In this document: positions 7,108-38,956 of the stretch, in pieces
Position numbering within the stretch: position 1 is the stretch's first letter
How the letters are laid out: the number at the start of each line of letters is the position of its first letter
Assembly (NCBI RefSeq): GCF_002001105.1
Contig: NZ_MUNP01000070.1
Coordinates: 124,001-188,000, forward strand
Source: Rhodanobacter sp. C06
GTDB taxonomy: Bacteria > Pseudomonadota > Gammaproteobacteria > Xanthomonadales > Rhodanobacteraceae
Direction of reading: 5' to 3'
Length of the DNA stretch: 64,000 bases
Notes under the pieces: generated by a model
Seen by the model: only the letters and a program-made list of their open reading frames with translations
What the model was told of the DNA's origin: nothing
Databases searched by the model: none
Made by a program: the position numbers and the translations under genes

Positions 7108-7588
7108 CATGCCGCGTCGAGGATCGGAAATTGTTTAGTTGGCACCAACGCCCAATTGGACAATGCCCTCTTGCTTCCACAACCGAATCTGGGCAAGTCG
7201 GGTCATAGCTGTCGGCCTGAACGCACGTACATCGGCGTGCCCGGTATATGCAAATCCGAGAGAGGCCTCGCTGAATCGGAAGCCTTCCAGCCATCACAGA
7301 AAGCGCAGGCTAGACCCTTCCCTACCCCCGATAACCCTTCCTAATCACCCTACCCAAGGTCCATATATTTGGCCCCGGCCTCTGCGCGGATATGGCCGAC
7401 TGGCTCAACACCTCTGCCTGCCACTGAGAGGCGGGTCGCTGTTGCATACCGTTTAGCGCCGTGCGCCTGCTGCGTTTCATTTGACAAGCATCAAATGCCC
7501 TCACACCGGCGCATGCCACGCTGCAATCAAGCGTGCACCGGGGACCGCACCATGTCGCCTCCGGAACCCAGTCGCAGTGGAGGATGTC
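7108..7588. other. Intergenic region before the cytochrome-porin gene
   Basis: No gene is supported in these 481 bp. They hold one copy of the recurring CYCGATAAC motif (7326-7335) in a C-rich stretch, an AT-rich tract near 7370, and the FNR-type box at 7481-7494. The start codon and ribosome-binding site of the next gene are at the right end. Confidence 0.6.
7481..7494 (+). promoter_or_regulatory. FNR/Anr-type box upstream of cytochrome-porin/ATPase genes
   Basis: TTGACAAGCATCAA matches TTGAT-N4-ATCAA in 9 of 10 key bases. A start near 7529 would give a ~60-nt leader to the ATG at 7589. The -10 region here is weak. Confidence 0.65.
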
Positions 7589-8974
7589 ATGGCTACCCGT
7601 TGCGCTGTTCGTCACCCTTGGTTTCACAGGCAGGTGCTCCGCATCTTGGCGCTCGCCACCGGACTGCTTGCCCTCGTGAGCGTTTCGCCCAGTGCCCAGG
7701 CAATACCCGCGTTCGCCCGGCAGACGCACGCGCCCTGCACGGCTTGCCATGTCGGTGGCTTCGGGCCACAGCTGACGGCGTTCGGGCGCCAGTTCAAGTT
7801 GCTTGGGTACACGCTCTCCGCCGGCGACAAGGACAATGTGCCGCTGTCGCTGATGCTGGTGGAGACGTACTCGAGCACTCGCAAGGCGCAGACCGCTCCA
7901 CCCGCCAAGGGTTTCGGCACCAATGACAACACCGAACTGCAGCAGGCCTCGGTTTTCGTCGGCGGCCGCATCACCGACCACCTCGGCGTGATGGCACAGG
8001 CGACCTATTCGGAGAATGGCGGACTGCTGGGCTGGGACAACAGCGACCTGCGCTACGCCCGCAGCTCCGCCGCATGGGGCCACAACGTGGTGTGGGGCAT
8101 CTCGCTCAATAACAATCCCAGCGTGACCGACGTCTTCAACACGGCACCATCGTGGCAGTTCCCGTACATGGCGCCCGACCTCGTCCCCGGCGCCCCGGCG
8201 GCGCCCATCCTGATGGGCGGGCTGGCCGGGCAGGTCGTCGGCCTGAATGCCTATGCGCAGATCGATGGAGGACTCTATCTGGAGGCAGGCGGCTATCGCT
8301 CGCTGTCGCCGGCCTTTCTGCGCGACGTGAACGCGGACTTCAGCGGACGGCTGAGTGGCGTCGCTCCCTATGCACGGCTCGCCTACACGTGGAACCTCGC
8401 CGGCGGCAACGCGCAGATCGGCGCCTTCGGCTTCCATGCGGCCCGCGGGCTGGCGGGCGCCAATATGCAGGGTGATGCGGTGGCGTTGGCTGGCCCCAGC
8501 GACAAGTTCACCGACCTGGGTGTCGATGCGAGCTACGTGTTGCAGGGCGGCGACAAGCACACCGTGACCTTCAACGGCCTGTACCTCACCGAACGGCAGC
8601 GCCTCGACGCCACCTATGCCGCCGGAATTTCCTCGAATCTGCACGACAGCCTGCGCGCACTGAACCTCAATGCCAGCTACTGGTACCGCAATACCTGGGG
8701 CATCACGCTGGGAGAATTCGCCGACGATGGCAGCCGCGACCTGGCGCTGTACGGCAACGACGGCCGTCCCGACACGCGGGGCAGCGTCGTCGAGCTGGAC
8801 TGGAACCCGTTCGGCAAGGCGGATTCGTGGATGCAGCCGTTTGCCAATGTCCGCCTCGGCCTGCAATACACCTGGTACACGCGCTTCAGCGGCTTGGTCA
8901 CCAACATCGATGGCGCGGGCCGGCGGGCATCGGACAACGACACGTTATACCTCTTTGCGTGGGTGTCGCTGTAG
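7589..8974 (+). CDS. Cyc2-like fused monohaem cytochrome c-outer membrane porin
   Basis: 461 residues from ATG 7589, chosen because GTGGAGG lies 8 nt upstream and a signal peptide follows (hydrophobic 17-33, cut after AQA). The mature protein begins IPAFARQTHAPCTACHVGG, with one CXXCH haem c site (CTACH, residues 50-54), then LTAFGRQFKLLGY. The remaining ~370 residues are alternating amphipathic segments ending in LFAWVSL, typical of an outer-membrane beta barrel. The FARQT-x3-CXXCH-...-FGRxFKLxGY layout is that of Cyc2-type fused cytochrome-porins, known from iron oxidisers and also present in others. Electron transfer across the outer membrane is inferred; the substrate is unknown. An FNR-type box lies upstream and a P1B-5 ATPase gene follows. 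Confidence 0.72.
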   Translation: MATRCAVRHPWFHRQVLRILALATGLLALVSVSPSAQAIPAFARQTHAPCTACHVGGFGPQLTAFGRQFKLLGYTLSAGDKDNVPLSLMLVETYSSTRKAQTAPPAKGFGTNDNTELQQASVFVGGRITDHLGVMAQATYSENGGLLGWDNSDLRYARSSAAWGHNVVWGISLNNNPSVTDVFNTAPSWQFPYMAPDLVPGAPAAPILMGGLAGQVVGLNAYAQIDGGLYLEAGGYRSLSPAFLRDVNADFSGRLSGVAPYARLAYTWNLAGGNAQIGAFGFHAARGLAGANMQGDAVALAGPSDKFTDLGVDASYVLQGGDKHTVTFNGLYLTERQRLDATYAAGISSNLHDSLRALNLNASYWYRNTWGITLGEFADDGSRDLALYGNDGRPDTRGSVVELDWNPFGKADSWMQPFANVRLGLQYTWYTRFSGLVTNIDGAGRRASDNDTLYLFAWVSL

Positions 8975-9089
8975 TGCCGCGCATGCCCGCCGGTGACTCG
9001 CGCGGATCGGTGAGGCCGGCCCGGCGCCCTCCCCGCGCGACGGGCCCGCGGCGGCAACGGGTTGTGGTCGCCCGCGCCCGGCGGAGCGG

Positions 9090-11411
<2,322 letters not shown>

Positions 11412-11456: not shown

Positions 11457-13175
11457 TCAGCGCCGCAGTGCCCGCAGCAGTCTTTCCAGGGGCAGCGTAT
11501 TCAACACGTCGGATGCGGCGAGCCAGGCGCGCCGTGCCTGGTCCACGCCATGGCGCATGTTCGCAAGCCCGGCAGCGGCGTGTGCATCGGTGGAAACCAC
11601 CAGCTTGCAGCCTGCCGCGCGGGCGGCGCGCGCGTGGACATCGTCGAGGTCCAGGCGATCCGGCTGCGCGTTGATCTCCATGGCCACGCCGCGTTCGGCG
11701 GCGGCGGCGAAAATGCTTTCCATGTGAGCGGCAAACTCCGGCCGTTGGTTGACGAGCCGGGTGGTGGGATGCGCCAGGATCTGCACCCGCCGGTTGTCTA
11801 GCGCCCTGAGGATGCGCGCGGTCTGTTTTCCGGCCGGCAAGCCGAGCTGGTAATGCGCCGCGACGACGACGACATCCATTTCGGACAGCACGGCATCGGG
11901 CAGGTCCAGGTGACCGTCGCCGAGGATGTCGACCTCGGCGCTCTTGAGCAGCCGGAAACCGCGGAAACCGGCGTTGAGCCGATCGATTTCGGCGAACTGG
12001 GCGCGCAGGTCCCGGGTATCGAGGCCATGCGCCACGCGCACCCGCCGCGAATGGTCGGTGATCGCGAGATAGTCGTAGCCGAGTGCGCGGGCGGCATCGG
12101 CCATGGCCTGCAGCGAATCGTGCCCGTCGCTGGCCACGGTGTGGGCATGCAGGTCGCCGCGAACGTCGCCCAGCTCGACCAGCGTCGGCAGCCGGCCGTC
12201 CGCCGCGGCTTCGATTTCGCCGCGGTTCTCGCGCAGCTCGGGCGGGATGAACGGCAGTCCCACGGCGGCGAACACTTCGTCTTCGGTGCGCCCGGCGATG
12301 CGCCTGCCGCCGCGGTACACGCCGTATTCGTTGATCTTGAGCCCCTTCGCCACCGCGATCCCGCGCACCGCGACGACATGCGGCTTGGAGCCCGTGAAGT
12401 AATGCAAGGCGGCGCCGTGGCTCGCCGCCGGCACCAGCCGCAGATCGACCTGCATGCCGTTGTGCAGTTGTACCGAGGCCCGTGTGGCGCCCACGGCCAG
12501 CACGCTGGCCACCGCGTCATGACGGGTGAACGCATGCGTCACCGGTGCTCCGCGACGTGCAGTGACCAGGATGTCGATGTCGCCCACCATGTCGCGACGG
12601 CGGCGCAGACTTCCCGCCACCTCCACCGTCTCGACACCGGGCATGGCGCCGAGGCAGGCGAGCAACGGCGCGGCGGCCTGCTCCGCGTCGACGAGCCGGT
12701 AGCGCTGCGGCGCGACGGCGCGACGCTCGATGGCCGCGGCGATGCGTGCCGTGGTCTTCGGTCCGAAACCGTGCAGCGAACGCAGCGCGCCGGAGCGTAT
12801 CGCGCGCTGCAGGTCCTCCCGATTGCGGATGCCGAGTTCGCGATACAGCGACTTCACCCGTTTCGGGCCCAATCCCGGCAGGTTCATGAGCTCGCCCAGC
12901 GCACGCGGCACGCGGGTTTCCAGCTCGGCGAGCTGCGGCAGCGCACCGGTGCGCACGATCGTGCCGATTTTCGCCGCGAGGTCCTTGCCTATGCCGGGCA
13001 AGTCGTCGAGCGCCTCCCCGGCGGCCATCCGGTCGGACATGCTCCGTCCCGAATCCGCCACCACGCGCGCGGCATTGCGGTAAGCGCGCACGCGGAACGG
13101 ATTGGCGCCCTGGATCTCCAGCAGGTCCGCATAGCGGCTGAAGAGTTCGGCGATGTCCGCGTTGCTGGCAGCCAT
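11457..13175 (-). CDS. polX: Family X DNA polymerase with PHP domain
   Basis: 572 residues, the standard bacterial PolX size. Order: 8-kDa and fingers region with helix-hairpin-helix motifs (LDDLPGIGKDLAAKIG; LMNLPGLGPKRVKSLY; GFGPKTTARI), palm with the catalytic acidic pair (GDIDILVTA; MQVDLRLV), then a PHP exonuclease domain (DLHAHTVASDGHDS; AITDHSRRVRVAHG; ILAHPTTR). PolX fills short gaps in base excision repair, and the PHP part adds Mn-dependent 3'-5' exonuclease activity. It is the last gene of hsp20-usp-adh-polX, starting 21 bp after adh, which places a repair enzyme under an FNR-type promoter. Confidence 0.92.
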   Translation of the reverse strand: MAASNADIAELFSRYADLLEIQGANPFRVRAYRNAARVVADSGRSMSDRMAAGEALDDLPGIGKDLAAKIGTIVRTGALPQLAELETRVPRALGELMNLPGLGPKRVKSLYRELGIRNREDLQRAIRSGALRSLHGFGPKTTARIAAAIERRAVAPQRYRLVDAEQAAAPLLACLGAMPGVETVEVAGSLRRRRDMVGDIDILVTARRGAPVTHAFTRHDAVASVLAVGATRASVQLHNGMQVDLRLVPAASHGAALHYFTGSKPHVVAVRGIAVAKGLKINEYGVYRGGRRIAGRTEDEVFAAVGLPFIPPELRENRGEIEAAADGRLPTLVELGDVRGDLHAHTVASDGHDSLQAMADAARALGYDYLAITDHSRRVRVAHGLDTRDLRAQFAEIDRLNAGFRGFRLLKSAEVDILGDGHLDLPDAVLSEMDVVVVAAHYQLGLPAGKQTARILRALDNRRVQILAHPTTRLVNQRPEFAAHMESIFAAAAERGVAMEINAQPDRLDLDDVHARAARAAGCKLVVSTDAHAAAGLANMRHGVDQARRAWLAASDVLNTLPLERLLRALRR

Positions 13176-13196: not shown

Positions 13197-14180
13197 TCAG
13201 GGAACCAGCACCGCCGCGCCACTGAGCCGGCCCTCGCGCAGGTCCGCCAGCGCCCGGTTCGCCTGCTCCAGCGGATAGGGCCGTGCCGCGGTGCGGATAT
13301 CGATGGTTGCCGCCAGCGCAAGGAAGTCGTGTGCGTCGCGGCGGGTGAGATTCGCGACCGAAACGATCTCGCGTTCCTCCCACAGCAGGCGGTACGGAAA
13401 GGCCGGGATGTCGGACATGTGGATGCCGCCGCACACCACGCGCCCGCCCTTCCGGACCGCCCTCAGCGCCATCGGGACGAGGGCGCCGACCGGCGCGAAG
13501 AGGATCGCCGCATCCAGCTGCTGGGGCGGCGGCGCATCCGAATCGCCCGCCCATGCGGCACCCAGCGAGCGGGCGAACGACTGCGCGATCGAGTCACCCG
13601 GTCGGGTGAAGGCGTACACCTCGCGCCCCTGCCGGATCGCCACCTGCGTGATGATGTGCGCGGCGGCGCCGAAGCCGTACAGTCCGATGCGCCGCCCGTC
13701 GCCGCAGCGCTGCAGGCAACGCCAGCCGATCAGGCCCGCGCACAGCAGCGGCGCGGTGGCCACGGCGTCGGCACCGTCGCGCAAGCGGACGCAGTACGCC
13801 GCACGCGCCGTCACATGGCTGGCAAAGCCCCCGGGACGGGTGTACCCGGTGAACTCGGGATGATCGCAAAGATTCTCGCGATCCGCCTTGCAGTACGCGC
13901 ATTCGCCGCAGCTGCCGCCGAGCCACGGCACGCCCACCCGCGCCCCCGGCGCGAGCGTGCCGACCTCCTCGCCCACCGCCTCCACGATGCCGACGATCTC
14001 GTGTCCCGGTATGAGTGGTGGCCGAATCCGCGGCAGCTCCCCGGACACGACATGCAAATCGGTGCGGCAAACGCCGCAGGCTTCGACGCGCAGCAGCACT
14101 TCATCCCGCCGCACGGCGGGCGTCGCCAGCGTCTTCAGTACCAGCGGCGCACCGACCGCTTCCAGCACCATCGCGCGCAT
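13197..14180 (-). CDS. Zinc-dependent alcohol dehydrogenase family protein
   Basis: A medium-chain dehydrogenase of 327 residues. Catalytic zinc ligands: C in VEACGVCRTDLHVV, the H/E pair in PGHEIVG and a later Cys (LLCAG). The structural zinc site is GSCGECAYCKADRENLCD. The Rossmann motif is altered but present (GLYGFGAAAHIITQVA). It resembles the AdhA/YugJ group that oxidises small alcohols or, under low oxygen, reduces aldehydes to regenerate NAD. It lies between a universal stress protein gene (27 bp upstream) and polX (21 bp downstream) in the hsp20 operon. Substrate not predictable. Confidence 0.88.
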   Translation of the reverse strand: MRAMVLEAVGAPLVLKTLATPAVRRDEVLLRVEACGVCRTDLHVVSGELPRIRPPLIPGHEIVGIVEAVGEEVGTLAPGARVGVPWLGGSCGECAYCKADRENLCDHPEFTGYTRPGGFASHVTARAAYCVRLRDGADAVATAPLLCAGLIGWRCLQRCGDGRRIGLYGFGAAAHIITQVAIRQGREVYAFTRPGDSIAQSFARSLGAAWAGDSDAPPPQQLDAAILFAPVGALVPMALRAVRKGGRVVCGGIHMSDIPAFPYRLLWEEREIVSVANLTRRDAHDFLALAATIDIRTAARPYPLEQANRALADLREGRLSGAAVLVP

Positions 14181-14207: not shown

Positions 14208-15032
14208 TCAGTGCCGGAACAGCACTGGAATGTCCGCCCACGCCAGCACATGCCGCGTGGCGCCGCCCAGCCACCACTCGCTGAAGCGGTTGCGTCCGTA
14301 GGCGCCCATCACGAGCAGGTCGGCGCCGAACTTCATCGATGCGTCCAGCAACACCGAGCCCACATCGTCGTGCCCGGCGGTGATCGTGCGTTCCTCGGCC
14401 TCGATGCCATGGCGCTGCAGGTATTGGGAGATGCTGAAGGGCGGATCCCATTCCACGCCGTAGCCGGTGTCGCGCTCCGCCGCCCCCCACAACAGCAGGA
14501 CTTCCTTGCCCCGCAACAGGGGTTGTGCCGCATGGATCGCCCGCATCGCCTCGGGCGAGCTGTTCCAGGCAACCGCCACGCGCCGAATCTGCCGGTCGGG
14601 CAGGATTTCCTCGCGGGGCAGGACGATGCACGGCATGCCCGACTTGAGGATCAGGTCCGGCAGGTCCCACGGCGAGTCCCGGTCATTCAAGGGATGGTCG
14701 AGCACCAGCAGATCGTGCCGCGTGATCGCCTGCAACAGCGCATCGGAAGTCCTCCCTTGCGCAACAACCCAGTCGAACTGTGGGGCGCCCAGCGACGCCG
14801 CCCATGCCTGGAGCGACGACCGGGCCTGGACCGCCTCCTTCACGAGTTCGAGTGCGCTTTCCACGTACGCCGTCGTCATCGGCGGGTCAAAGCCCGGTAT
14901 GTAGTGCATGGGATGCGGGCAGGTGTAGACCGCGGTGACCGATGCTCCCAGCGTTGCCGCGAGTCGCACGCCGAACAGGCTCGCCGGCGTGTGATCCCGG
15001 TAATCCCTGGCGTGGATGAGGATGTCTTTCAT
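14208..15032 (-). CDS. Universal stress protein, two-domain type
   Basis: 274 residues, about twice a single UspA domain. The N-terminal half (MKDILIHARDYRDHTPASL) is a degenerate UspA domain. The C-terminal half keeps the ATP-binding-type motif VMGAYGRNRFSEWWLGGATR. It is the second gene of hsp20-usp-adh-polX, with 60 bp to hsp20 and 27 bp to adh. It closely resembles the two-domain USPs at 20070, 24901 and 26533, suggesting local duplication. Such proteins support survival under anoxic energy stress in Pseudomonas; the same role here is inferred. Confidence 0.9.
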   Translation of the reverse strand: MKDILIHARDYRDHTPASLFGVRLAATLGASVTAVYTCPHPMHYIPGFDPPMTTAYVESALELVKEAVQARSSLQAWAASLGAPQFDWVVAQGRTSDALLQAITRHDLLVLDHPLNDRDSPWDLPDLILKSGMPCIVLPREEILPDRQIRRVAVAWNSSPEAMRAIHAAQPLLRGKEVLLLWGAAERDTGYGVEWDPPFSISQYLQRHGIEAEERTITAGHDDVGSVLLDASMKFGADLLVMGAYGRNRFSEWWLGGATRHVLAWADIPVLFRH

Positions 15033-15092: not shown

Positions 15093-15536
15093 TCAGCCCA
15101 CGGCGATCTTGCGCGCGCTTCCGTTCGCCTTCTTGGGCAGTGTCAGCGAGAGCACGCCCTTGTCGTAGCGCGCCTCGGTGCGGCTCCCGTCGATTTCTGC
15201 AGGCAGCGTGAAGGCCCGGTAGGCCTTTTCCCACGACCTTTCGACGACGAGCTCCTTTTCGCCCTTCCTTTCCTTCTCGCGCTTCGTTTCCGCGCTGATC
15301 GCGACGTGGTTTCCTTCCACGGACACGTCGATGTCGTCCTTGTCCAGGCCGGGAATATCGGCACGCAGGTGGAAGGCGTCCTCGCCTTCGGTGATGTCCA
15401 CCCGCATGTCGGCGGTGAATTCGGGCTGGTTCCACAACGGGCCGAGGCCGAAATTGCGCAGCAGATCGTCGAGCGATGCCGACGTCTCGAACCTTGCGGG
15501 GCTCCGGAACGGAATGAAGCGTGTGATGGCAGTCAT
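15093..15536 (-). CDS. Small heat shock protein, Hsp20/alpha-crystallin family
   Basis: 147 residues with a short N-terminal arm (FIPFRSPARFE), an alpha-crystallin domain (about 45-140; DAFHLRADIPGLDKDDIDVS, NHVAISAETKRE) and the closing GVLSLTLPKK motif. It is an ATP-independent holdase preventing protein aggregation. First gene of the operon reading to polX. The FNR-type box at 15609-15622 and a TAGCGT hexamer at 15582-15587 give a predicted start near 15574, a ~38-nt leader. Confidence 0.93.
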   Translation of the reverse strand: MTAITRFIPFRSPARFETSASLDDLLRNFGLGPLWNQPEFTADMRVDITEGEDAFHLRADIPGLDKDDIDVSVEGNHVAISAETKREKERKGEKELVVERSWEKAYRAFTLPAEIDGSRTEARYDKGVLSLTLPKKANGSARKIAVG

Positions 15537-15608: not shown

Positions 15609-15622
15609 TTGACGCATGTCAA
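15609..15622 (-). promoter_or_regulatory. FNR/Anr-type box for hsp20-usp-adh-polX
   Basis: TTGACGCATGTCAA. The -10-like hexamer TAGCGT (minus strand, 15582-15587) is centred 31 bp from the box centre, the class II activation spacing. Confidence 0.75.
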
Positions 15623-15650: not shown

Positions 15651-15664
15651 TTGACCGGGGTCAA
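15651..15664 (+). promoter_or_regulatory. FNR/Anr-type box for the MgtA-like ATPase
   Basis: TTGACCGGGGTCAA. CATGGT at 15686-15691 is centred 31 bp away. The implied start (~15699) is only about 4 nt before the ATG at 15703. Confidence 0.7.
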
Positions 15665-20897: not shown

Positions 20898-20932
20898 GGC
20901 ATCAGTTCGTATTGCCCGCCTGGAGGTCGATC

Positions 20933-26500: not shown

Positions 26501-26532
26501 CGCATCCGGCTCCGGATGCGGGAGGCATGATC

Positions 26533-28391: not shown

Positions 28392-28405
28392 TTGATGTCG
28401 CTCAA
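28392..28405 (+). promoter_or_regulatory. FNR/Anr-type box for usp at 28488
   Basis: TTGATGTCGCTCAA. CAACAT at 28427-28432 is centred 31 bp away; predicted start ~28440. Confidence 0.68.
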
Positions 28406-29237: not shown

Positions 29238-29266
29238 TGTTCATCCTCCTCGTCGACCGGACGGGA

Positions 29267-30814
29267 TCAGTACTTTTTCGTCGCATCGGAGTCCACCGGC
29301 CAGATCTTCAGTCCATCCGGGCCCAGGCGAACGAGGCGTATCGACAGGATCGCACCAGCCGCGAAGAGGCCGGCGATGGCCGTGTACGCGATAGCGGCGA
29401 CGGCCATCTCCGATGCCGTCGCCTGGATTTCGGTGATGGGCAGCAGTCCGTCGATCAGCCACGGGCCACGGCCCGCTTCGCTCACCAGCCAACCCAGCGC
29501 CCCCGCCACCCACGGTACCGGCAGGCTCCAGGCCGCCAGGCGCAGAAAACCGCGGCGGTCCAGCTGACGTCTCGACGCCAGCCAGAACGCCACGCCGAAC
29601 AGGACGATGCCGTATGCGCCCAGCAGCGCCATGGCCCGGAAAGCCCAGAACAGCAGCGGTACGTCCGGGATCGTGTCGCGGGCCGCGGCGGTCATCTCGT
29701 CACCATTACGCTGCAATGGATTTCGCACGTGACGCAACAGCAACAATCCATAGCCAAGGTCGGGGTTGGCACCGACCTTGGCGGCGTTGGACCCTGCTGC
29801 GCGCGAGGAAGCTTCCTTGTTGTCCAGCGCCATGAATTCCGCGAGGCCGCGGCGGATGCGCTCCACGTTCGCTGCCTCAAGCTCGTCCAGCCCCGCCACC
29901 GGCTTGCGCCACGAATGCATCGCGCCCAGTCCCAGCAGCCAAGGCATGCGCCATGCGACGCGAGTCGTGCGGCTGTCCGGGTCGGGTATCCCAAAAAGCA
30001 CGAACGGGGCTGGAGCCGGCTGCACATGCCATTCGCCCGCGATCGCGGCAATGCGCATCTGCTGACCTGGCGAACCGGCATAGCCGTCCCGGTCGCCGAG
30101 CACGGCCAGTGAGAGCGCCGCGGCCAGACCGAAGCTGGCCGCGACGGTCATCGAGCGGCGGGCGATCTGCACGTTGCGACCACGCAGCAAGTACCACGCC
30201 GAGGCCGACAGCACCAGCGTCGCCGCCACGAGGTAACTGGAGCCGACGAGATGCACGAATCGAGTCTGCGCGGCGGGGTTGAGCAGCGCCAACGGCACGT
30301 CATGGATCCAGACTTGCAGGGTGCCGGGATCGAGGTACGCACCGGAGGGGTTGTCCATCAAGCCGTAGCCGATCGCGATCTTGAGCGCCGACAAGGTCGA
30401 AAGCAGCATCCACAGCCAGGTGATGAGCAGATGCTGCAGTCGCCCCAGGCCCAGCCAGTCGGTGTAAAGGCGCCAGAGGAACACGCCACCACCAAACACC
30501 AGCGGCGTCATGAGCAGGGTCAACGCCAACCCCGGGATCCCGTGCAGGTGTCGGGTGAACCGGCCGGGATCCGCGGCATACAGGATGATCAACACAATCG
30601 ACCCGATCGCCCACATCAGCAGCGCGATGCCGAACAGCCTGCCCCAGTAGCGGGCGATCTGTCGCCAGATCTCCCGTTCGGTCATCACGTACACGCTTTC
30701 CATGATCGCGATGATGGGCGGCAGGCCGACGACCAGCGGCAGCAAGGTGGCGGCATAGCAGGCGACGATGTGGGACCACAGCGCCGAAGCATGGAACGAG
30801 GAAAGTTCGATCAT
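29267..30814 (-). CDS. CydA-like protein lacking high-spin haem ligands
   Basis: 515 residues, about the size of E. coli CydA and collinear with it (GLPPIIAIMESVYV; LNPAAQTRFVHLVGSSY; WHVQPAPAPFVLFGIPD; WLVSEAGRGPW). By my alignment the haem b558 ligands are kept (H188 = His186, M395 = Met393), as is E446 (Glu445). The residues for b595/d and the proton path are replaced: His19 by A21, Glu99 by L101, Glu107 by G109. Q-loop Lys252 and Glu257 are R254 and A259. It therefore probably cannot reduce O2 like CydA. No cydB adjoins; cydX follows and a usp gene precedes (44 bp). Related divergent CydA paralogues are known, but function is unclear. Confidence 0.82.
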   Translation of the reverse strand: MIELSSFHASALWSHIVACYAATLLPLVVGLPPIIAIMESVYVMTEREIWRQIARYWGRLFGIALLMWAIGSIVLIILYAADPGRFTRHLHGIPGLALTLLMTPLVFGGGVFLWRLYTDWLGLGRLQHLLITWLWMLLSTLSALKIAIGYGLMDNPSGAYLDPGTLQVWIHDVPLALLNPAAQTRFVHLVGSSYLVAATLVLSASAWYLLRGRNVQIARRSMTVAASFGLAAALSLAVLGDRDGYAGSPGQQMRIAAIAGEWHVQPAPAPFVLFGIPDPDSRTTRVAWRMPWLLGLGAMHSWRKPVAGLDELEAANVERIRRGLAEFMALDNKEASSRAAGSNAAKVGANPDLGYGLLLLRHVRNPLQRNGDEMTAAARDTIPDVPLLFWAFRAMALLGAYGIVLFGVAFWLASRRQLDRRGFLRLAAWSLPVPWVAGALGWLVSEAGRGPWLIDGLLPITEIQATASEMAVAAIAYTAIAGLFAAGAILSIRLVRLGPDGLKIWPVDSDATKKY

Positions 30815-30858
30815 GTTGGCTTGCTCCGCATCTTGGCCACGACCGCATCACTGGTCGC

Positions 30859-31296
30859 TCAATGCACTACCAGTACAGGAATTCCGGTATGCGTCAGCAC
30901 TTGCTGCGTCTCGCTGCCGAGCATGAATTTCGCGATGCCGTGCCTGCCGTGCGATGCCATCACGATCAGGTCGCAGCCTGACTCCGCGGCCTTCGCGACG
31001 ATCGTCTTCCAGGGCTGATCGCCCTGCACTGCGATCGTTTCGCATGCCACCCCGGCACACTCGGCCTCGTGCACAAGCGGCGAGAACAGCTCGTCGGCAT
31101 ATGCCCTGGCCAACTGCCGCAATTGATCCTGAGGCGGCTCGATCAGTTCCTCGACGATGCCGATGGAGTTGAATTCCATCATCACGTGCAGGCCGGTGAC
31201 GCGCGCTCCGGCGCCTTGCGCCAGTGCGATGGCCTGCTCGATGGCCCGGTGCGTACCCGCGTCGTTGTCGACAGGAACCAGGATGTGCTTGAACAT
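30859..31296 (-). CDS. Universal stress protein UspA family, single domain
   Basis: 145 residues from ATG 31296 (MFKHILVPVDNDAGTHRAIE); ATG 31311 would add MDPTD. ATP-binding motif VMASHGRHGIAKFMLGSETQ. First gene of usp-cydA-like-cydX. The predicted FNR-dependent start near 31552 gives a ~240-nt leader that ends in a perfect 10-bp hairpin (31312-31341) directly before the upper start codon. Confidence 0.9.
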   Translation of the reverse strand: MFKHILVPVDNDAGTHRAIEQAIALAQGAGARVTGLHVMMEFNSIGIVEELIEPPQDQLRQLARAYADELFSPLVHEAECAGVACETIAVQGDQPWKTIVAKAAESGCDLIVMASHGRHGIAKFMLGSETQQVLTHTGIPVLVVH

Positions 31297-31694
31297 GTCG
31301 GTCGGATCCATGGACCGCGATTCTTCCCTGGATCGCGGTCCCTGCTCGGTAAGGGGACGCATGCATCCCGCAACGTCGTCCGGTCCACCGCCTCGGGGCA
31401 TCTGATGCGGCCTGGCGATTTCCTCGCCGTCACACCTGTCGACCTCCGCAAGTCCGATCCAGGCTGCGAGGCCGCGCCCTCGGCGCGTCCTCCCACCTGC
31501 CACGCAACTGCCTCGAAGCGCTTGCCCGTGCATGGATTCCGGCCTGGCCGGCGAGCGTCACTATCCCGCGCGGCCGATGTAGCCTCTTGATGCATGTCAA
31601 CTCCGATCCGGAAAGGTCTGCGTAGCCGGTGCGCGCGCAGGCTGTTGCGTTGCGATAAGCTTTCGGGCCCCTATCCCTGCACACCACGAACGCC
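31297..31694. other. Intergenic region: FNR-type promoter, long leader and hairpin
   Basis: No gene seen in these ~400 bp. A perfect inverted repeat GGACCGCGAT (31312-31321) / ATCGCGGTCC (31332-31341) has a 10-nt loop that contains a purine-rich AGGGAAG on the minus strand. The FNR-type box is at 31587-31600. A possible sigma-70 promoter for the response regulator lies near 31640-31660. Confidence 0.55.
31587..31600 (-). promoter_or_regulatory. FNR/Anr-type box for usp-cydA-like-cydX
   Basis: TTGATGCATGTCAA. GATAGT on the minus strand (31560-31565) is centred 31 bp away. It could also influence the divergent response regulator. Confidence 0.75.
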
Positions 31695-32414
31695 ATGCCA
31701 GAGCCCTTGCATCTGCTGGTCGTTGACGACGATGCCGGCGTGCTGGACCTGCTGCGCCGCTATTTCGCGGGCCAGGGCTTCGAGGTCAGCACGGCGGCCG
31801 ATGGTGCGGGGATGCATGCCGCGCTGGCGCGCAAGCCTGCCGACCTGGTGCTGCTGGACCTCGGCCTGCCCGGCGAGGACGGTCTCGAGTTGACCCGCCA
31901 GTTGCGCCGGAACTGGAACGGCGCGCTCATCATCATCACCGGCCGTGGCGAATCGGTGGACCGCGTGGTTGGCCTGGAACTGGGGGCCGACGACTACGTC
32001 ACCAAGCCGTTCGATCTGCGGGAGCTGCTCGCGCGCGTGCGCAGCGTGCTGCGACGAAGCGTCCCAGCGATGGCCACCGCGGAAACCGCCGAGGCGACGT
32101 TCCAGTTCGCCGGCTACTGTCTGCACCCGCTGGAGCGCACGCTGCGCAACGACCGCGGCGACGCGATCGCGCTGACCACCGGCGAGTACGAGCTGCTGCG
32201 CGTGTTCGTCGAACACCCCAATCGGGTGCTGTCGCGCGACGACCTGATGGAGCGCATCCACGGCCGCAACGCCGGTCCGTTCGACCGCGCCATCGACGTG
32301 CAGATCGCGCGCCTGCGCCGCAAGATCGAGCCGGATGCGACGGCTCCCGAACTGATCAAGTCGGTGCGCGGCGCCGGCTACCTTTTCGCGGCCCGCGTTC
32401 AAAGGGGGCGATGA
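31695..32414 (+). CDS. OmpR/PhoB-family response regulator
   Basis: 239 residues. Receiver domain (1-120) with the acidic pocket VVDDD, phospho-acceptor Asp in LVLLDLGLPGEDGLE and Lys in YVTKPFD. A winged-helix DNA-binding domain follows (about 135-235; TTGEYELLRVFVEHPNRVLS; DRAIDVQIARLRRKIE; VRGAGYLF). The stop codon is immediately followed by the ATG of the hybrid kinase gene, so the two form a two-component pair. The proteins it regulates are unknown, but its location in the low-oxygen island suggests local control. Confidence 0.93.
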   Translation: MPEPLHLLVVDDDAGVLDLLRRYFAGQGFEVSTAADGAGMHAALARKPADLVLLDLGLPGEDGLELTRQLRRNWNGALIIITGRGESVDRVVGLELGADDYVTKPFDLRELLARVRSVLRRSVPAMATAETAEATFQFAGYCLHPLERTLRNDRGDAIALTTGEYELLRVFVEHPNRVLSRDDLMERIHGRNAGPFDRAIDVQIARLRRKIEPDATAPELIKSVRGAGYLFAARVQRGR

Positions 32415-34460
32415 ATGGACGCCCCACCTCCCGCCATCATCAGCCTGGCGATGCTGCATACCTGGTTCGGGATCTCCCCCGACGCGATGATCGCCGTGAA
32501 CCAGGAAGGCGCCATCGTGCTCGCCAACGCGCAGGCGGGACGCATGTTCGGCTACGAGGATGCGATGCTGCTCGGGTTGACCCTGGAGGCACTGCTGCCG
32601 GAACCCCTGCGGCACGCCCACCGCATGCATCGCCACGATTTCATGGCCACCCCCCGTGTGCGTCCAATGGGCATCGGCTACGAGCTGATGGGCGTGCGGC
32701 GCGGTGGCGAGTCGTTTCCGGTCGAGATCGGCCTGAGCCCGATTGCCACCGAAATCGGTGCTGTCGCGATCGCCTCGGTGCGCGACATCTCCGAGACGCG
32801 GCGGGTGCGGCAGGCCCTCGCGCGCGCGCGGCGCGACAACTTCCTCGCGCAGATCGGCCGGCTCGCGCTGGAATCACCGGACTACGAACTTGCGATCCGC
32901 CGGATACCGGAACTCGTCGCGGCCGCCCTGGAGGTGCAGGCCGTGGCCATCTTCTCCACCGACTGGCACGGCAACGCGCTGCGCGTCCGCGCCGCTACCG
33001 GATTGCATGGACAGGCCACGCAGGCGATCGTGTCCATCTTCGGCCAGACCGACCTCATTCGTGGCGCCTTCGGGACCGGGGGCCGTCATGCGGTCACGGC
33101 CGACACGCTGCGTGACGGGGAACTGGGCGGCATTCTCGCCAAGTTGGCCGGGGTCGGCTTTCATGACGTTGCGATGGTGCCGCTGTTTGGCCGCTACGAG
33201 CCGCTGGGTGTGCTGGTCGCGCTCGACTCGAAAGCGGCCGGTTTCGACCACGATCGGCTCAGCTTCCTGCAGTCGGTCGCCAATCTGCTGGCGGCGGCCG
33301 TGCAACGCAGTCGCAGCGAGGAGCAACTGGCGCATGCCCAACGGCTCGACGCGATCGGCCAGCTTACCGGCGGTGTCGCGCACGACTTCAACAACCTGCT
33401 GACGGTGATTTCGGGCAATCTCCAGCTGCTCGAAGCCGGTCTGGCCGATCGCCCGGAACTGCTGGAAATCAGCGATGGCGCACTGCGCGCGGTGGACCGC
33501 GGTTCCGACCTGACCCGCCGGCTGCTCGCGTTCGCGCGCCGGCAGTCGCTGCAGCCCCGCGCGGTCGTGCCCAAGCCGCTGCTGGAGGAACTCGGGCACA
33601 TGCTCAGGCGCACGCTCGGCGAGGCCATCGCAATCGAAATCGCGTGCGAGGCGGACGTGCCGGACGTGTACGCGGACGCGAACGAGCTGGATACGGCCCT
33701 GGTCAATCTCGCGCTGAATGCTCGTGATGCAATGCCGCGCGGAGGACGCCTGCACATCGCCGTGCGCGAAACCGTGGTCGAGGACGCGTCCAACGGATGG
33801 AAACTCCCGCCGGGCCGCTATGTGGCATTCGACATCAGCGACACCGGCACGGGCATGGCGCCGGAGGTGCTGGCGCATGCGCTGGAGCCGTTCTTCACCA
33901 CCAAGGACGCCGGCAAGGGCAGCGGCCTCGGCCTCAGCATGGTGTACGGCTTCGTGACCCAGTCCGGCGGCAGCCTGTCGATCGACAGCCGGCTCGGCTA
34001 CGGCACTCACATCGAACTGTTGCTGCCCGTCGCAAGCGTGCCGGGCGCCACGGCGGTGGGAGCGAAGCCGCCGCGTGACGAACTGCCCGAAAAGTGCGCC
34101 ACCATCCTGGTCGTCGAGGACGAAACGGACGTGCGCACCGTCGCGGTTCGGCTTCTGGGGGCGTTCGGCTACCAGGTCATCCCGGCGGGCAGCGCCCGCG
34201 AGGCGCTGGATCTGCTCACCGGGAATCCCGGCGTGGACCTGCTGTTCTCCGACGTGATGCTGGGCAGCGGCATGAATGGCGTGGAACTCGCACACGAGGC
34301 GCGCCGCCTCCGGCCCGGGCTCGCGGTGCTGCTCACGTCCGGTTACCGGGGGCGACAGGGTGGAGCGGAGGGCCCGACCACGCCATTCGAGCTGTTGCGC
34401 AAGCCCTACCGGCGGGAGCAACTGGTCGAGGCCGTGCGCCGGGTGCTGGATGACGCGTGA
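32415..34460 (+). CDS. Hybrid sensor histidine kinase (PAS-GAF-HisKA-HATPase-REC)
   Basis: 681 residues, no membrane helix or signal, so cytoplasmic. Order: PAS (~10-130; WFGISPDAMIAVNQEGAIVL, typical of sensory PAS), GAF (~140-300; FLAQIGRLALESPDYELAIR, GVLVALDSKAAGFDHDRL), HisKA with the phospho-His in GGVAHDFNNLLTVIS (~315), HATPase (~415-535; NLALNARDAMP, DTGTGMAPEV, GKGSGLGLSMVYGF) and a C-terminal receiver (~555-680; VVEDETDVR, LFSDVMLG). It is directly coupled to the response regulator before it. PAS or GAF may bind haem or flavin and sense O2, NO or redox state, but no ligand residue can be assigned. Confidence 0.92.
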   Translation: MDAPPPAIISLAMLHTWFGISPDAMIAVNQEGAIVLANAQAGRMFGYEDAMLLGLTLEALLPEPLRHAHRMHRHDFMATPRVRPMGIGYELMGVRRGGESFPVEIGLSPIATEIGAVAIASVRDISETRRVRQALARARRDNFLAQIGRLALESPDYELAIRRIPELVAAALEVQAVAIFSTDWHGNALRVRAATGLHGQATQAIVSIFGQTDLIRGAFGTGGRHAVTADTLRDGELGGILAKLAGVGFHDVAMVPLFGRYEPLGVLVALDSKAAGFDHDRLSFLQSVANLLAAAVQRSRSEEQLAHAQRLDAIGQLTGGVAHDFNNLLTVISGNLQLLEAGLADRPELLEISDGALRAVDRGSDLTRRLLAFARRQSLQPRAVVPKPLLEELGHMLRRTLGEAIAIEIACEADVPDVYADANELDTALVNLALNARDAMPRGGRLHIAVRETVVEDASNGWKLPPGRYVAFDISDTGTGMAPEVLAHALEPFFTTKDAGKGSGLGLSMVYGFVTQSGGSLSIDSRLGYGTHIELLLPVASVPGATAVGAKPPRDELPEKCATILVVEDETDVRTVAVRLLGAFGYQVIPAGSAREALDLLTGNPGVDLLFSDVMLGSGMNGVELAHEARRLRPGLAVLLTSGYRGRQGGAEGPTTPFELLRKPYRREQLVEAVRRVLDDA

Positions 34461-34466: not shown

Positions 34467-35189
34467 TCACTGGATCGTGCAGGGCGTGCCGACGCAGGCG
34501 CGCAACTTGGGCACATCCAGCAACTTCACTTCGCGGCGAAGCACCGAGATGTACTGGAGCCGCTCCAGGTGCGACAGCGCCCGGGTCACGGTTTCGTGCT
34601 TCAGCGCCAGGAAACTCGCGATATCCGCCCGCCCCATCCGCAGGATGAAGTGGCGGGCACTGAAGCCGAGGCGGGCGAGGCGGGCGGCAATGTCCAGCAG
34701 GAACGCCGCCACGCGCTGCTCGGCCGGCAGGGTTCCAATCGTCAACATCCAGACGCGGTCGCGGCGGATTTCCTCGGCCAGCGCCGCCGCCAGGCGAACC
34801 TGCAGCTCGGGGATGTGACGCAACGCATCCAGCACCGGCGGATACGGCAGTTCCCAGATCTCGGCATCGTCCAGCGCGACGGCATCGCAGGTGTGCACGC
34901 TCAGGCCGATGGACTCGACGCCGAGCAGGTCGCCGCGCATCCTGAATCCGGTCACCTGCTCGCGGCCATCCTCGGACAACTCGCAGGTCTTCAGGAACCC
35001 CGCATGCACGAAATGCAACGCGCGGAATGGCTGGCCGTTGCGGTACAGGTATTGGCCCGCCCTCACCTTCCGGCGTGTCACGACCATGTGCCGCTGCAAC
35101 TCGGCGATATCCAGCTCGAGCGGCGCTTCGTGCCGGAACGATTGCGGATTCGTGGCTTCAGGCGCGAGCGGTGCGAACGAGGTGTCCAT
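34467..35189 (-). CDS. Crp/Fnr-family regulator without Fe-S cysteines
   Basis: 240 residues from ATG 35189 (GGGAG 6 nt upstream). Cyclic-nucleotide-binding fold (~35-150; VRAGQYLYRNGQPFRALHFV; GREQVTGFRMRGDLLGVESI), dimer helix and Crp-type HTH (~170-235). The recognition helix reads KHETVTRALSHLE: the Glu and Arg that read TTGA half-sites in FNR are kept, with Ser replaced by Thr. It lacks the N-terminal Cys cluster and the central Cys (WELP in place of CEIP) of FNR/ANR, so it cannot hold a [4Fe-4S] cluster in the known way; it is more like DNR-type haem/NO sensors. It is a candidate regulator of the TTGAY-N4-RTCAA boxes here. Confidence 0.9.
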   Translation of the reverse strand: MDTSFAPLAPEATNPQSFRHEAPLELDIAELQRHMVVTRRKVRAGQYLYRNGQPFRALHFVHAGFLKTCELSEDGREQVTGFRMRGDLLGVESIGLSVHTCDAVALDDAEIWELPYPPVLDALRHIPELQVRLAAALAEEIRRDRVWMLTIGTLPAEQRVAAFLLDIAARLARLGFSARHFILRMGRADIASFLALKHETVTRALSHLERLQYISVLRREVKLLDVPKLRACVGTPCTIQ

Positions 35190-35312: not shown

Positions 35313-35326
35313 TTGATGCGCGTCAA
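35313..35326 (+). promoter_or_regulatory. FNR/Anr-type box between Crp/Fnr gene and RNR-like gene
   Basis: TTGATGCGCGTCAA. On the plus strand GATAGT (35348-35353) is centred 31 bp away, giving a start ~35361 and a 20-nt leader to the RNR-like gene. On the minus strand the box is ~130 bp before the regulator ATG and could serve autoregulation. Confidence 0.72.
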
Positions 35327-35380: not shown

Positions 35381-36463
35381 ATGATCGAGCCACGCCGGTT
35401 GTCCCCGTTCATCGACCTCGCCGCCGTCGAAGCCTGGGATGCTTGGTTCCGTTGGCGCGAGCGCAGCGTGCTGCGCGATGTTTCCATCGAGGACACCTGG
35501 TGGCGGGTAGTCAGCACGCTGGCGTCGGCGGAGCCCAGCCATGAAGAAGCGACATGGCAGGTGCGCTTCATGGACGCCTTGGCCAGCTGGCGATTGCTGC
35601 CTGACGAGCGCGTGCTGGCGAAGATCGGCACCGGCCGGTCCGGCTGGCACGGCGATGTGCTGCACGCCGTGCTGAACGCGGCGTGCTTCGTATCGCCGGA
35701 AGGCGCGCCGCGCGCGACCATCGACTTCGCTGCGCTGGCCGATTGCGCGGCCCTCGCTGTGCGGGCCCTCGACAACGCCGCGCTGCTGGCCGGCCATGTG
35801 GCGACACGGTTCCGAATCGGCATCGTCGGCGTCGCCGACGCACTCGCCCTGCTCGGGCTGGAGTACGACAGCGATGCGGGGCGCGCACAGGCAGCGGCGC
35901 TGGCACGAGCGCTTGCGGAGGGCTGCCTGGGCGGCAGCATCGCGCTCGCCGCGTCGCGGGGAGCCTGCAAGCGCGACGCACGCGGGCTCATCGCGCGCGC
36001 GATGCTGCGCGACGCACCGCGGGACCTGCTGAAGGATGCCGCCCGGCACGGCCTGCGCCACATGCAGCTGACTGCGATCACCTCGCAGCCCCGGCTTGCA
36101 CTGCTGGCCAACGACGTGGCCGACGCCGTCGACCCGCTGCTCGGCGAGAACCATGCGCATGCGATCGAGGCGGCCGACGGGCGACGCACGATACGCTCCT
36201 CCGGCTACGCGCTGAACCTGCTGCGCGGCCACATCGGCCGCCCTGGCGAGCGGCCGGACACGCTGGAACACCAGTCGTGGTTCGCGCAGCTCGCGATGCG
36301 CGCCGCGCTGCAACCTTGGATGGACATCCCCATCGCCTACCCGCTGCTGACGGTGCGTCAACCCGAAGAATCGCAACGGCTGGAGGCCAGGAAACTGACA
36401 GCTCAGCATGGCCTCGGCGAACCAACCTGGCGCAGCTCGGCGGAGTTGCAGGCGATCCAGTAG
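35381..36463 (+). CDS. Ribonucleotide-reductase-like protein, function unknown
   Basis: 360 residues from ATG 35381. The segment RFRIGIVGVADALALLGLEYDS resembles the conserved RIGLGVMGLADML block of class II/I ribonucleotide reductase large chains, and CAALAVRALDNAA resembles the helix before it. The start (LSPFIDLAAVEAWDAWFRWRE) also recalls RNR-type proteins. At 360 residues it is far shorter than a working large subunit (600-800), and the radical/active-site Cys pattern is not evident; the only Cys are in NAACFVS, LADCAAL, EGCLGG and GACKR. It is divergent from the Crp/Fnr gene under an FNR-type box. It may be a degenerate RNR module with a regulatory or binding role; moderate certainty. 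Confidence 0.6.
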   Translation: MIEPRRLSPFIDLAAVEAWDAWFRWRERSVLRDVSIEDTWWRVVSTLASAEPSHEEATWQVRFMDALASWRLLPDERVLAKIGTGRSGWHGDVLHAVLNAACFVSPEGAPRATIDFAALADCAALAVRALDNAALLAGHVATRFRIGIVGVADALALLGLEYDSDAGRAQAAALARALAEGCLGGSIALAASRGACKRDARGLIARAMLRDAPRDLLKDAARHGLRHMQLTAITSQPRLALLANDVADAVDPLLGENHAHAIEAADGRRTIRSSGYALNLLRGHIGRPGERPDTLEHQSWFAQLAMRAALQPWMDIPIAYPLLTVRQPEESQRLEARKLTAQHGLGEPTWRSSAELQAIQ

Positions 36464-36471: not shown

Positions 36472-38874
36472 TCAGCGCAATATGCCCGCCTCGGGAGACG
36501 CCCATGCCCATTCGCGCACTTCCGGCAGGTCCATGCCGTGCTCGCAGATGTAGCGGCGGTGCTCGGTCAGCTTGTCCAGCAGTTTCTGTTTGAGGTAGAC
36601 GGTCCGCGAGGCGAGCCCGGGCAAGCGCTCGATCGCATCCATCACCAGGTGGAAGCGATCCAGCCCGTTCAGCACCGTCATGTCGAACGGGGTGGTGATC
36701 GCCCCCTCTTCCTTGTACCCATGCACGTGCAGGTTGTCGTGGTTGCGCCGCCGGTAAGTCAGGCGATGGATCAGCGCGGGGTAGCCGTGGTAGGCGAAGA
36801 TCACCGGCCGGTCAGCGGTGAACAGCCGATCGAAATCGCCGTCGCCGAGACCATGCGGGTGCAGGCTAGGTGACTCCAGTTTCATCAGGTCCACGACGTT
36901 GACGACCCGGATCTTCAGCTCCGGGAGGTGGTAGCGAAGGATGGATACGGCAGCCAGCGTCTCCAGGGTCGGCACGTCGCCTGCACAGGCCATCACCACG
37001 TCAGACTCGCCGTCCTGGTCGTTGCTGGCCCATGGCCAGATGCCGATGCCGCGACTGCAATGCTCGACGGCAGCCTCGATGCCCAGCCACTGCGGCGCGG
37101 GATGCTTGCCGGCGACCACCACGTTCACGTAGTGGCGGCTGCGCAGGCAGTGATCCATCACCGAGAGCAGGCAATTGGCGTCCGGCGGCAGGTAGACCCG
37201 CACGATCTCCGCCTTCTTGTTGACCACGTGGTCGATGAAGCCGGGGTCCTGGTGGGTGAAGCCGTTGTGGTCCTGCCGCCACACGTGTGAGGCGAGCAGG
37301 TAGTTGAGCGAGGCGATCGGCCGCCGCCAAGGGATGCGCGAAGTCATCTTCAGCCACTTGGCATGCTGGTTGAACATCGAATCCACGATGTGAATGAATG
37401 CCTCGTAGCAGTTGAACACGCCATGGCGGCCGGTCAGCAGGTAACCCTCCAGCCAACCCTGGCACTGGTGTTCGCTCAGCACCTCCAGCACGCGGCCATC
37501 GCGGGCCAGGAATTCGTCGGTCGGCCGGGTCTCGGCCTCCCATTGGCGATTCGTCACCTCGAACGCGGCCTCCAGACCGTTCGAGATCGTTTCGTCAGGC
37601 CCGAAGATGCGGAAATTGCCCTGGTCCCGGTTGGCGCGGATCACCTCGCGCAGAAAGCCGCCGAGCACGTGGGTATCGCCAATGCCAGCCACGCCCGGCT
37701 CGGCCACCACCGCGGCATGCTTGCGGAAATCGGGCATGCGTAGGTCGTGCAACAGCAGACCGCCGTTGGCATGCGGGCTGGCGCTCATGCGCCGTTCCCC
37801 GCGCGGCGCGAGCCTGCGCAGCTCGGCGCGCAGCCGGCCGCGGGCGTCGAACAGTTCGTCGGGTCGATAGCTGCGCAGCCATGCCTCCAGCGCCGTGAGG
37901 TGCTGCGGCGTGGCGGCGGACACCGGCAACGGCACCTGGTGCGCGCGGAACGTGCCCTCGACCGGCTTGCCGTCGACGATCCGTGGACCGGTCCAGCCCT
38001 TCGGCGACTCGAGCACGATCATGGGCCATGCCGGTCGAGCATGGCTCCTCCCGTCGCGCGCCACGTGCCGGATCCGCCGGATGTCGGCGCAAACCGCATC
38101 GAGCGCCGCCGCCATCATCCGATGCATGGACGCGGGGTGGCGACCGCGCACGAAGTACGGCTTCCAGCCGCAGCCGCGCAGGAATTGCGACAGCTCGCGG
38201 CGAGGAATCCGCGCCAACACGGTGGGATTGGCGATCTTGTAGCCGTTCAGGTGCAGGATCGGCAGCACCGTCCCGTCGCTGACGGGGTTCAGGAACTTGT
38301 TGCCGTGCCAGGACGTGGCCAGCGCGCCGGTCTCGGCCTCGCCGTCGCCGATCACGCAAGCGGCGATCAGGCCCGGGTTGTCGAACACCGCACCGAAGGC
38401 ATGGCTCAACGAATAGCCGAGCTCGCCGCCTTCGTGGATCGAGCCAGGGCACTCAGGCGAAGCGTGGCTGGCGATTCCGCCAGGGAAGGAGAACTGCTTG
38501 AACAGGCGCTGCAGGCCCGCCTCGTCTTCACTGATCTCCGGATAGAGCTCGCTGTACGTACCGTCCAGGTAGGCATTGGCAACCACCGCCGGTCCGCCGT
38601 GTCCGGGACCGGAGAGATAGATCATGTCGAGCTTGTGCTGCCGGATCGCCCGGTTGAGGTGCGCGTAGATGAAATTCTGCCCGGGCGTCGTCCCCCAGTG
38701 GCCGACCAGCGTGTGCTTGACGTGCTCCAGCTTCAGCGGCTCGCGCAACAACGGGTTGGCGCGCAGGTAGATCTGGCCGACCGACAGGTAATTGGCCGCA
38801 CGCCACCAAGCGTCGATGCCCCGCAGGACCTGTGGATCGACCACGTCGCGACGGACTCCGGTTTTCAAGTTCAT
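36472..38874 (-). CDS. xfp: Phosphoketolase (xylulose-5-P/fructose-6-P)
   Basis: 800 residues, full length for the XFP family. Thiamine-diphosphate enzyme that splits xylulose-5-P or fructose-6-P with phosphate to acetyl phosphate plus a triose or tetrose phosphate. Family blocks: [71 protein letters not shown] and [19 protein letters not shown] (TPP site). It is divergent from acetate kinase, which turns the product into acetate and ATP. Box at 38943 and TGATAT at 38915-38920 give a predicted start ~38908 and a 34-nt leader. Confidence 0.95.
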
Positions 38875-38942
38875 GGCTCGCCGTGTCCCGTTCCGCCCCA
38901 GCGACGGCGAACGGATATCAGCATGCGGCCATCCCCTCCCAG

Positions 38943-38956
38943 TTGATCTCGATCAA
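38943..38956 (-). promoter_or_regulatory. FNR/Anr-type box between xfp and ackA
   Basis: TTGATCTCGATCAA, a perfect palindrome. On the minus strand TGATAT (38915-38920) is centred 32 bp away, favouring xfp. ackA begins 135 bp to the right and may share the site. Confidence 0.8.

Follow-up and report, generated by a model that had tools for sequence, protein, structure and literature searches.

Introduction

The regulons of FNR and Anr are dispersed over the genome. In FixK-type control, a cysteine-poor relative of FNR reads an FNR-type box beneath a heme-PAS kinase, and DosR, a response regulator of the NarL type, recognizes a different box. Here we compare with such systems a stretch of 64,000 nucleotides from Rhodanobacter sp. 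C06 (assembly GCF_002001105.1, contig NZ_MUNP01000070.1, positions 124,001 to 188,000; hereafter the window). It contains a 31-kb island, at positions 7481 to 38956, in which transcription units are preceded by FNR-type boxes and which encodes an FNR-clade regulator of its own.

As portrayed in the passages cited here, the lxa locus of Burkholderia cenocepacia comprises 50 genes with six universal stress proteins (USPs) and an alpha-crystallin, is induced at low oxygen and has an Anr-like candidate regulator (PMC6127331, PMC9733578). Strain H111 is described as lacking lxa (PMC3759415), yet an Anr-type box precedes cydPAB in the same strain (PMC9104464); on these partial accounts, the boxes of B. 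cenocepacia are therefore not confined to lxa. The DosR system of Mycobacterium tuberculosis is summarized as a regulon of 48 hypoxia genes, among them those for 10 USPs and alpha-crystallin (PMC6127331). In the portion of the literature that our search returned, nothing was found on an island of the present kind or on FNR control in Rhodanobacter.

Results

Distribution of FNR-type boxes

The pattern TTGAN-N4-NTCAA (TTGAN6TCAA) matches the window 14 times, at precisely the fourteen places listed in a preliminary description of this DNA and nowhere else. Chance would account for 0.22 matches, and the maximum over 100 shuffles was 2. Across the whole genome (4,137,396 bases in 82 contigs) there are 24 matches, of which 14 fall within the 31,476 bases of the island and 10 in the remaining 4.1 Mb. 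The island makes up 0.76% of the genome, and the binomial probability that it would hold at least 14 of the 24 sites is 4e-24; the much higher density anticipated for this region is thus what the genome scan returned, and equal density elsewhere is not. A control pattern, the box read backwards, also has 24 matches genome-wide. That is, there is no excess of boxes outside the island, where their number is at or below chance. All five genomic copies of the perfect form, TTGATN4ATCAA, fall inside the island. When one mismatch is allowed, this form has 68 matches genome-wide versus 12 for the reversed pattern, so that weaker sites outside the island are possible.

All 14 boxes lie outside gene calls, though 88.75% of the island span is coding. 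When the window was scanned with a matrix trained on the 14 sites, no other site scored as high; the next-best (15.2, intragenic) scored below the weakest of the 14 (17.6), a comparison in which the matrix derives from those same sites. The clustering of boxes in the island is real. Their origin by chance was considered and rejected on the expectation for the window, the genome-wide confinement and the binomial probability.

Boxes and predicted promoters

Hexamers resembling a -10 element were scored at each spacing from the box centre, with a threshold of 2.5 in the window. For 12 of the 14 boxes, a hexamer reaching this threshold lies at 31 or 32 bp on the strand facing a gene whose start adjoins the gap with the box; when only the strictly nearest gene start is counted, the number is 9. 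Other spacings in the window yielded a mean of 0.67 sites reaching 2.5 (maximum 3). Sets of 14 random intergenic positions, drawn 2000 times, gave 1.38 on average (maximum 7). The preliminary description had counted eleven boxes with a -10 on the strand of the nearest gene, a figure that falls between our two. The hexamers it quoted, TGATAT for xfp, TAGCGT for hsp20 and GATAGT for the cydA-like operon, are all present, but for the box at 31587 the nearest gene start is that of the response regulator, not of the cydA-like unit.

Pooling non-identical sites from the window and from 36 related loci (n = 169) gave scores above 3 in 17.5% of orientations at 31 bp and 10.9% at 32 bp, with 0-3% at the remaining spacings printed (15-59 bp). 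A score of 3 at 31 or 32 bp was reached by 91 of the 169 sites. Class II FNR sites are centred at -41.5, according to the passage cited (PMC6343905). The boxes of the island are TTGAT-N4-ATCAA-like palindromes (14 of 14 match TTGAN6TCAA, five of 14 perfectly), and in the 12 that face an adjoining gene with a hexamer, as at the peak of the pooled sites, the distance to the -10 centre corresponds to such a position relative to predicted starts. Judged from sequence, boxes and -10 spacing together thus have the class II FNR layout, as had been proposed, and the peak at 31-32 bp supports this against the controls.

Transcription units were derived from gene calls on open reading frames, made with our own script; one call of 46 residues was dropped, and genes less than 150 bp apart were joined. 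On this basis, each of the 16 unit starts in the island has a box in its upstream gap, versus none of the 11 outside it in the window, and the earlier statement that nearly every unit begins with a site is borne out. Six of the 16 leading genes have no hexamer of at least 2.5 on their own strand at 31-32 bp: those at 7634+ and 15703+, the USP gene at 24901-, the response regulator gene at 31695+, the FNR-like regulator gene at 34467- and the acetate kinase gene at 39091+. For these six, the sequence lends class II control no support.

The regulator encoded in the island

Four HTH_Crp_2 proteins in the genome exceed the cut-off, namely an Anr with a CxxC motif (contig C10), a protein that we take to be Clp-like (C25), an atypical protein (C22) and the island protein. 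The Anr, which carries CSSCAFAEAC and the helix AAETVSR, is the only CxxC-type FNR found. The island regulator does not have the CxxC-x5-C motif and fourth cysteine of [4Fe-4S] FNR and Anr proteins; the C-C-C cluster motif is absent from all 37 sequences, that is, this protein and 36 relatives, and four of the 37 do contain a pair of scattered cysteines within their first 50 residues. When the island regulator is aligned to a solved FNR, E21 and W112 stand at two FNR cysteine positions, W112 at the fourth; we take the corresponding cysteines of FNR to be cluster ligands. Since the [4Fe-4S] cysteine motif is lacking, this protein probably does not sense oxygen in the manner of FNR.

The recognition helix of FNR is kept in the island regulator, as is the GDL loop, which is presumably part of activating region 3 (AR3). 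One account (PMC12531629) assigns AR3 to this domain and gives it a role in activation at class II promoters. The recognition helix is of the E--SR type seen in FNR and Anr, reading HETVTR here and HETV(T/S)R in the relatives inspected, and ALKHETV-R is invariant in 34 aligned rows. The nearest solved relatives are FNR (2e-46) and then FixK2 (8e-24), with DNR (3dkw) at 9e-12. In a tree, 16 island-type regulators form one group apart from 24 CxxC FNRs with a support of 86/100; two cysteine-less proteins of another family join this group, and long branches are flagged. The homologue from R. lindaniclasticus is 89% identical.

Boxes and regulator in related genomes

The 36 related loci that carry the regulator come from Rhodanobacter, Dyella, Luteibacter, Tahibacter, Rudaea and metagenome-assembled genomes. 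At least one box is present at 34 of them, and the 651 kb that they span contain 162 boxes, a count that includes near-copy loci, versus one match to the reversed pattern. At 22 of the 36, the 500 bp preceding the regulator gene contain a box. Homologues of the kinase and of the response regulator occur at 34 and 32 loci, respectively, mostly adjoining the regulator gene and convergent with it; apart from one locus (L044), those without either are short contigs or contig ends. The remaining island genes vary in presence and order among the 36 loci. The sister genome G010 mirrors the window, with 14 of its 25 boxes within 31.5 kb.

A genome of Rudaea (G022) has the regulator and no CxxC-type FNR among its six HTH_Crp_2 matches. 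It contains 41 boxes versus 6 in the control, including two clusters of eight boxes in 12-13 kb each, in which homologues of USPs, the ribonucleotide-reductase-like protein, GNAT, Hsp20, the MaoC-phosphate acetyltransferase fusion, acetate kinase, alcohol dehydrogenase and PolX are found. No box lies within 10 kb of the regulator gene of this genome (L067). Genome G002 likewise has the regulator, with no CxxC-type FNR among three HTH_Crp_2 matches.

In 11 hand-picked genomes, the maximum number of boxes per 15 kb is 3-10 in the six with the regulator (our own genome excluded; the values for G341 and G324 are lower bounds) and 1-2 in the five without it. Among 69 genomes of the family, with the regulator scored as present at E 1e-60 or better, the median is 32 boxes in the 21 with the regulator versus 22.5 in the 48 without it (p = 3e-4); the control pattern shows no such difference (p = 0.37). 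Box clusters resembling that of the island appear, from these sequences, in relatives carrying the regulator.

In another genus, g257, the clusters are larger: at least 16 boxes lie in 41 kb near the regulator of G341 (G341:C1:252521-293525) and at least 17 in 96 kb near that of G324 (G324:C1:160353-256633), and G353 has neither regulator nor box cluster. The second CxxC FNR of the sister genome (locus L126, G010:C1:52001-71900) has two TTGACN4GTCAA boxes at its flanks, which would suit a small cluster belonging to another regulator. G013, from the genus of the window and with a CxxC FNR, has no strong box versus 13 in the reversed control.

The kinase-response regulator pair

The regulator gene is convergent with a pair of genes for an OmpR-type response regulator and a hybrid kinase. 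The PAS domain of this kinase has as its best PDB matches 10jx (a multi-sensor histidine kinase), FixL (7e-15) and DosP. Its residue H69 aligns to the heme-ligating histidine of FixL and is invariant in all 33 rows that cover the position in a 34-row alignment; at the position where we place the distal arginine of FixL, 21 of the 34 rows have Y and 10 have Q. A role of the domain as a heme or oxygen sensor is plausible as a prediction, and we infer from gene content and the FixL-like PAS that low oxygen is a reasonable candidate for the signal. The picture of one low-oxygen regulon physically gathered together, with which the preliminary description ended, thus stands as regards a clustered regulon with FNR-type boxes, and its low-oxygen part is as firm as that inference.

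Discussion

A proposed regulon kept in one place

We propose that the island is a regulon kept in one place, whose units would be switched on by an activator encoded within it, with a signal received through the kinase pair, and we give this reading as a whole a probability of roughly 0.62. The activator would bind TTGA(T/C)-N4-(A/G)TCAA, centred about 41 bp upstream of the predicted starts, and would make class II contacts with RNA polymerase. The signal would probably be passed by the convergent kinase and response regulator, in a relay like that of FixLJ and FixK. The putative output, consisting of seven USPs, Hsp20, the phosphoketolase-phosphotransacetylase-acetate kinase route, alcohol dehydrogenases and ion-pump ATPases, would help the cell to survive and to keep making ATP once respiration stops. 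From the comparison of genomes, the island regulator is likely to be the main reader of the boxes. The sequences themselves show the boxes with their spacing and confinement, the absence of the cysteine motif and the conservation of the regulator-kinase module; binding, activation, heme, the low-oxygen signal and the physiology are predictions.

Several observations weigh against this proposal. No -10 with class II spacing precedes the genes of the regulator or of the kinase pair, and no kinase pair was found within 10 kb of the regulator at L044. In the PAS domain, a second histidine three residues on (HxxH) is as invariant as the first, and the closest solved PAS is 10jx; the histidine is thus not proof of heme. 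In G002 the cluster is weak, with three boxes in 15 kb, within 6 kb of the regulator. The difference in boxes among the 69 genomes is weaker per Mb (p = 0.012), and the species are not independent, so that total counts alone are a weak argument. Genomes without the regulator also exceed the control count, which implies that other FNRs read the same box. Finally, the same genome encodes a CxxC Anr, whose gene has two one-mismatch sites at a distance of about 8 kb, and this Anr may bind the boxes of the island as well.

Alternative readings

One alternative, which we hold to be unlikely, is that this ordinary [4Fe-4S] Anr reads the boxes and that the island regulator is an accessory protein or a repressor. 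The Anr has its cluster motif and helix intact, the neighbouring one-mismatch sites would suit it, and Anr-type proteins such as the P. putida FNRs are described in the cited passage as binding the same box (PMC4505428). However, no exact box occurs on contig C10 or in the 19.9 kb around anr, and exact boxes beyond the island are at chance level. The label FNR/Anr given in the preliminary description is not supported as it was worded: the sole CxxC Anr resides on a contig without an exact site, and the island encodes a cysteine-less member of the FNR clade. Anr as the only reader is weakened further by G022, which retains clustered boxes, and by G002, in both of which no CxxC-type FNR was found among the HTH_Crp_2 matches. 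Among the 11 genomes compared, moreover, three or more boxes per 15 kb occur only in the six with the island regulator.

Cysteine-less relatives of FNR such as DNR bind heme and nitric oxide (NO). The island regulator might itself be the sensor, binding heme and NO in the manner of DNR or responding to a small molecule. The island would then be a regulon for NO or for a metabolite, with some other role for the kinase. A nosR gene a few kb beyond the island and hemerythrin- and nitroreductase-type genes within it speak for this possibility, but we consider it improbable, as DNR is a far weaker match to the regulator than FNR or FixK2, and kinase and response regulator homologues adjoin the regulator at nearly all related loci. 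That the boxes are chance matches or copies of one duplicated promoter, for which only the pairs of boxes in some divergent gaps could be cited, is refuted by the counts and controls, by the differing spacers and kinds of downstream gene, and by the recurrence of boxes at related genes in other genera under other gene orders.

Returning to the regulon with its own activator, we tentatively extend it to a self-contained system in which an FNR minus its Fe-S sensor has been put under a heme-PAS kinase, with targets held around this core, reshuffled in order among genera and, in some species, confined to about one locus; we regard this extension as somewhat less probable than its opposite. The regulons of global regulators are normally scattered, and here the targets of one activator would be gathered in 31 kb. 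As target presence, order and number vary within the family, the clustering of a regulon becomes testable by comparison. The island also offers a case of an FNR without its oxygen sensor that has retained its box and the class II spacing, with a plausible substitute for that sensor encoded alongside.

Gene content of the island and its flank

Protein families were assigned by Pfam and NCBIfam profile searches on our own gene calls (Table 1). Besides the seven USPs, the island encodes Hsp20, two P-type ATPases and two zinc alcohol dehydrogenases.

Table 1. Genes and FNR-type boxes of the island, in window coordinates, with the -10-like hexamer and its distance from the box centre.
Coordinates	Strand	Feature	Hexamer	Distance (bp)
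7481..7494		Box TTGACAAGCATCAA, upstream of 7634+; no -10 at 31-32 bp		
7634..8974	+	Protein with single CxxCH motif; no family match in profile searches		
9093..11411	+	Heavy-metal P-type ATPase fused to C-terminal hemerythrin domain		
11457..13175	-	PolX-like DNA polymerase/PHP protein		
13197..14180	-	Zinc alcohol dehydrogenase		
14208..15032	-	USP		
15093..15536	-	Hsp20		
15609..15622	-	Box for hsp20-USP-alcohol dehydrogenase-PolX unit	TAGCGT	31
15651..15664		Box between hsp20 and Mg-type P-ATPase 15703+; hexamer weak (score 2.0)	CATGGT	
15703..18270	+	Mg-type P-ATPase		
18286..18299	+	Box for BON-nitroreductase unit	TGGAAT	31
18352..19767	+	BON-domain protein and nitroreductase-family protein		
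19910..19923	+	Box for USP 20070+	TAGCGT	32
20070..21412	+	USP and Host_attach/baeRF protein		
21600..22637	-	Zinc alcohol dehydrogenase		
22787..22800	-	Box for alcohol dehydrogenase 21600-; stronger hexamer on opposite strand	TCAACT	32
23184..24590	-	MaoC-phosphate acetyltransferase fusion		
24762..24775	-	Box for MaoC-phosphotransacetylase 23184-	TAGAGT	32
24901..25704	-	USP		
25763..25776		Box between USP 24901- and GNAT 25928+; hexamer faces GNAT, not nearest gene	TGGAAT	
25833..25846	+	Box for GNAT-USP 25928+	TAGAAA	31
25928..27417	+	GNAT acetyltransferase and USP		
27444..27881	-	USP		
28346..28359	-	Box for USP 27444-; nearest gene start is 28488+	TAGCCT	32
28392..28405	+	Box for USP 28488+	CAACAT	31
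28488..28979	+	USP		
29112..31311	-	CydX-like (29112-29237), CydA-like (29267-30814) and USP; no CydB		
31587..31600	-	Box for USP-cydA-like-cydX unit; also upstream of nearer response regulator 31695+	GATAGT	31
31695..32414	+	OmpR-type response regulator		
32415..34460	+	Hybrid histidine kinase PAS-GAF-HisKA-HATPase-REC, FixL-like PAS		
34467..35189	-	FNR-clade regulator without Fe-S cysteine motif; recognition helix HETVTR; proposed reader of boxes		
35313..35326	+	Box between ribonucleotide-reductase-like gene (hexamer) and FNR-like regulator gene	GATAGT	31
35381..36463	+	Short ribonucleotide-reductase-like protein		
36472..38874	-	Phosphoketolase		
38943..38956	-	Box for phosphoketolase (xfp); gap shared with ackA 39091+	TGATAT	32
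39091..40260	+	Acetate kinase		

In an alignment with CydA of E. coli, the CydA-like protein has A/C in place of the heme b595 histidine and has lost both heme d-side glutamates, and it keeps H186, M393 and the motif GW--E-GR-PW. The losses are common to the four relatives found, where their sequences cover the positions. This protein is possibly a b558-only quinol protein and not an oxidase.

Directly beyond the island, positions 41279-45700 (+) carry a reductase-like gene, an ApbE-like gene and nosR, up to which genes were searched. No full box is present at these three genes; the matrix scan gave a weak box, CTGACCGAAGTCAA, at 41242, just 5' of the reductase-like gene.

The ribonucleotide-reductase-like protein had no match among plasmids. 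A class-wide profile search with it gave matches in 220 of 274 genomes, which are probably ordinary ribonucleotide reductases for the most part. Of 10 regions of 14-20 kb around strong matches, three contain boxes (4, 3 and 1) and seven none; two of the three also hold PolX and a kinase homologue. In L128 and L131, from another family of the class, 4 and 3 boxes, respectively, accompany PolX, a kinase homologue and a full-length gene of this type within 19.9 kb. A wider lxa-like family traced through this gene was rejected, the matches being probably unspecific for the most part and most of the regions free of boxes.

Comparison with known systems

The DosR regulon, in the outline given above, resembles the island in combining USPs with alpha-crystallin, the counterparts here being USPs and Hsp20, and would share with it a response to hypoxia if low oxygen is the signal of the island; it differs in the type of its regulator and in its box. 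FNR and Anr regulons share the box and the class II spacing, but the island is a single locus whose proposed activator is without the cluster motif. With FixLJ-FixK and FixK2 the island has in common a heme-PAS-like kinase and a cysteine-poor relative of FNR on an FNR-type box. Here, however, the response regulator is of the OmpR type and the hybrid kinase contains GAF and REC domains; the island regulator is nearer to FNR than to FixK2, and control of its gene by the response regulator is a proposal.

Compared by description, lxa is the nearest described kind of locus. Both are large clusters with several USPs and an Hsp20 or alpha-crystallin, of which the island has seven and one, respectively. 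As far as the published outline of lxa goes, its Anr-type candidate, BCAM0049, lies outside the locus, whose limits we assume here, whereas the island regulator lies inside and lacks the Fe-S cysteine motif. Likewise, the boxes of B. cenocepacia extend beyond lxa on those partial accounts, whereas the exact boxes that exceed chance in the present genome are confined to the island.

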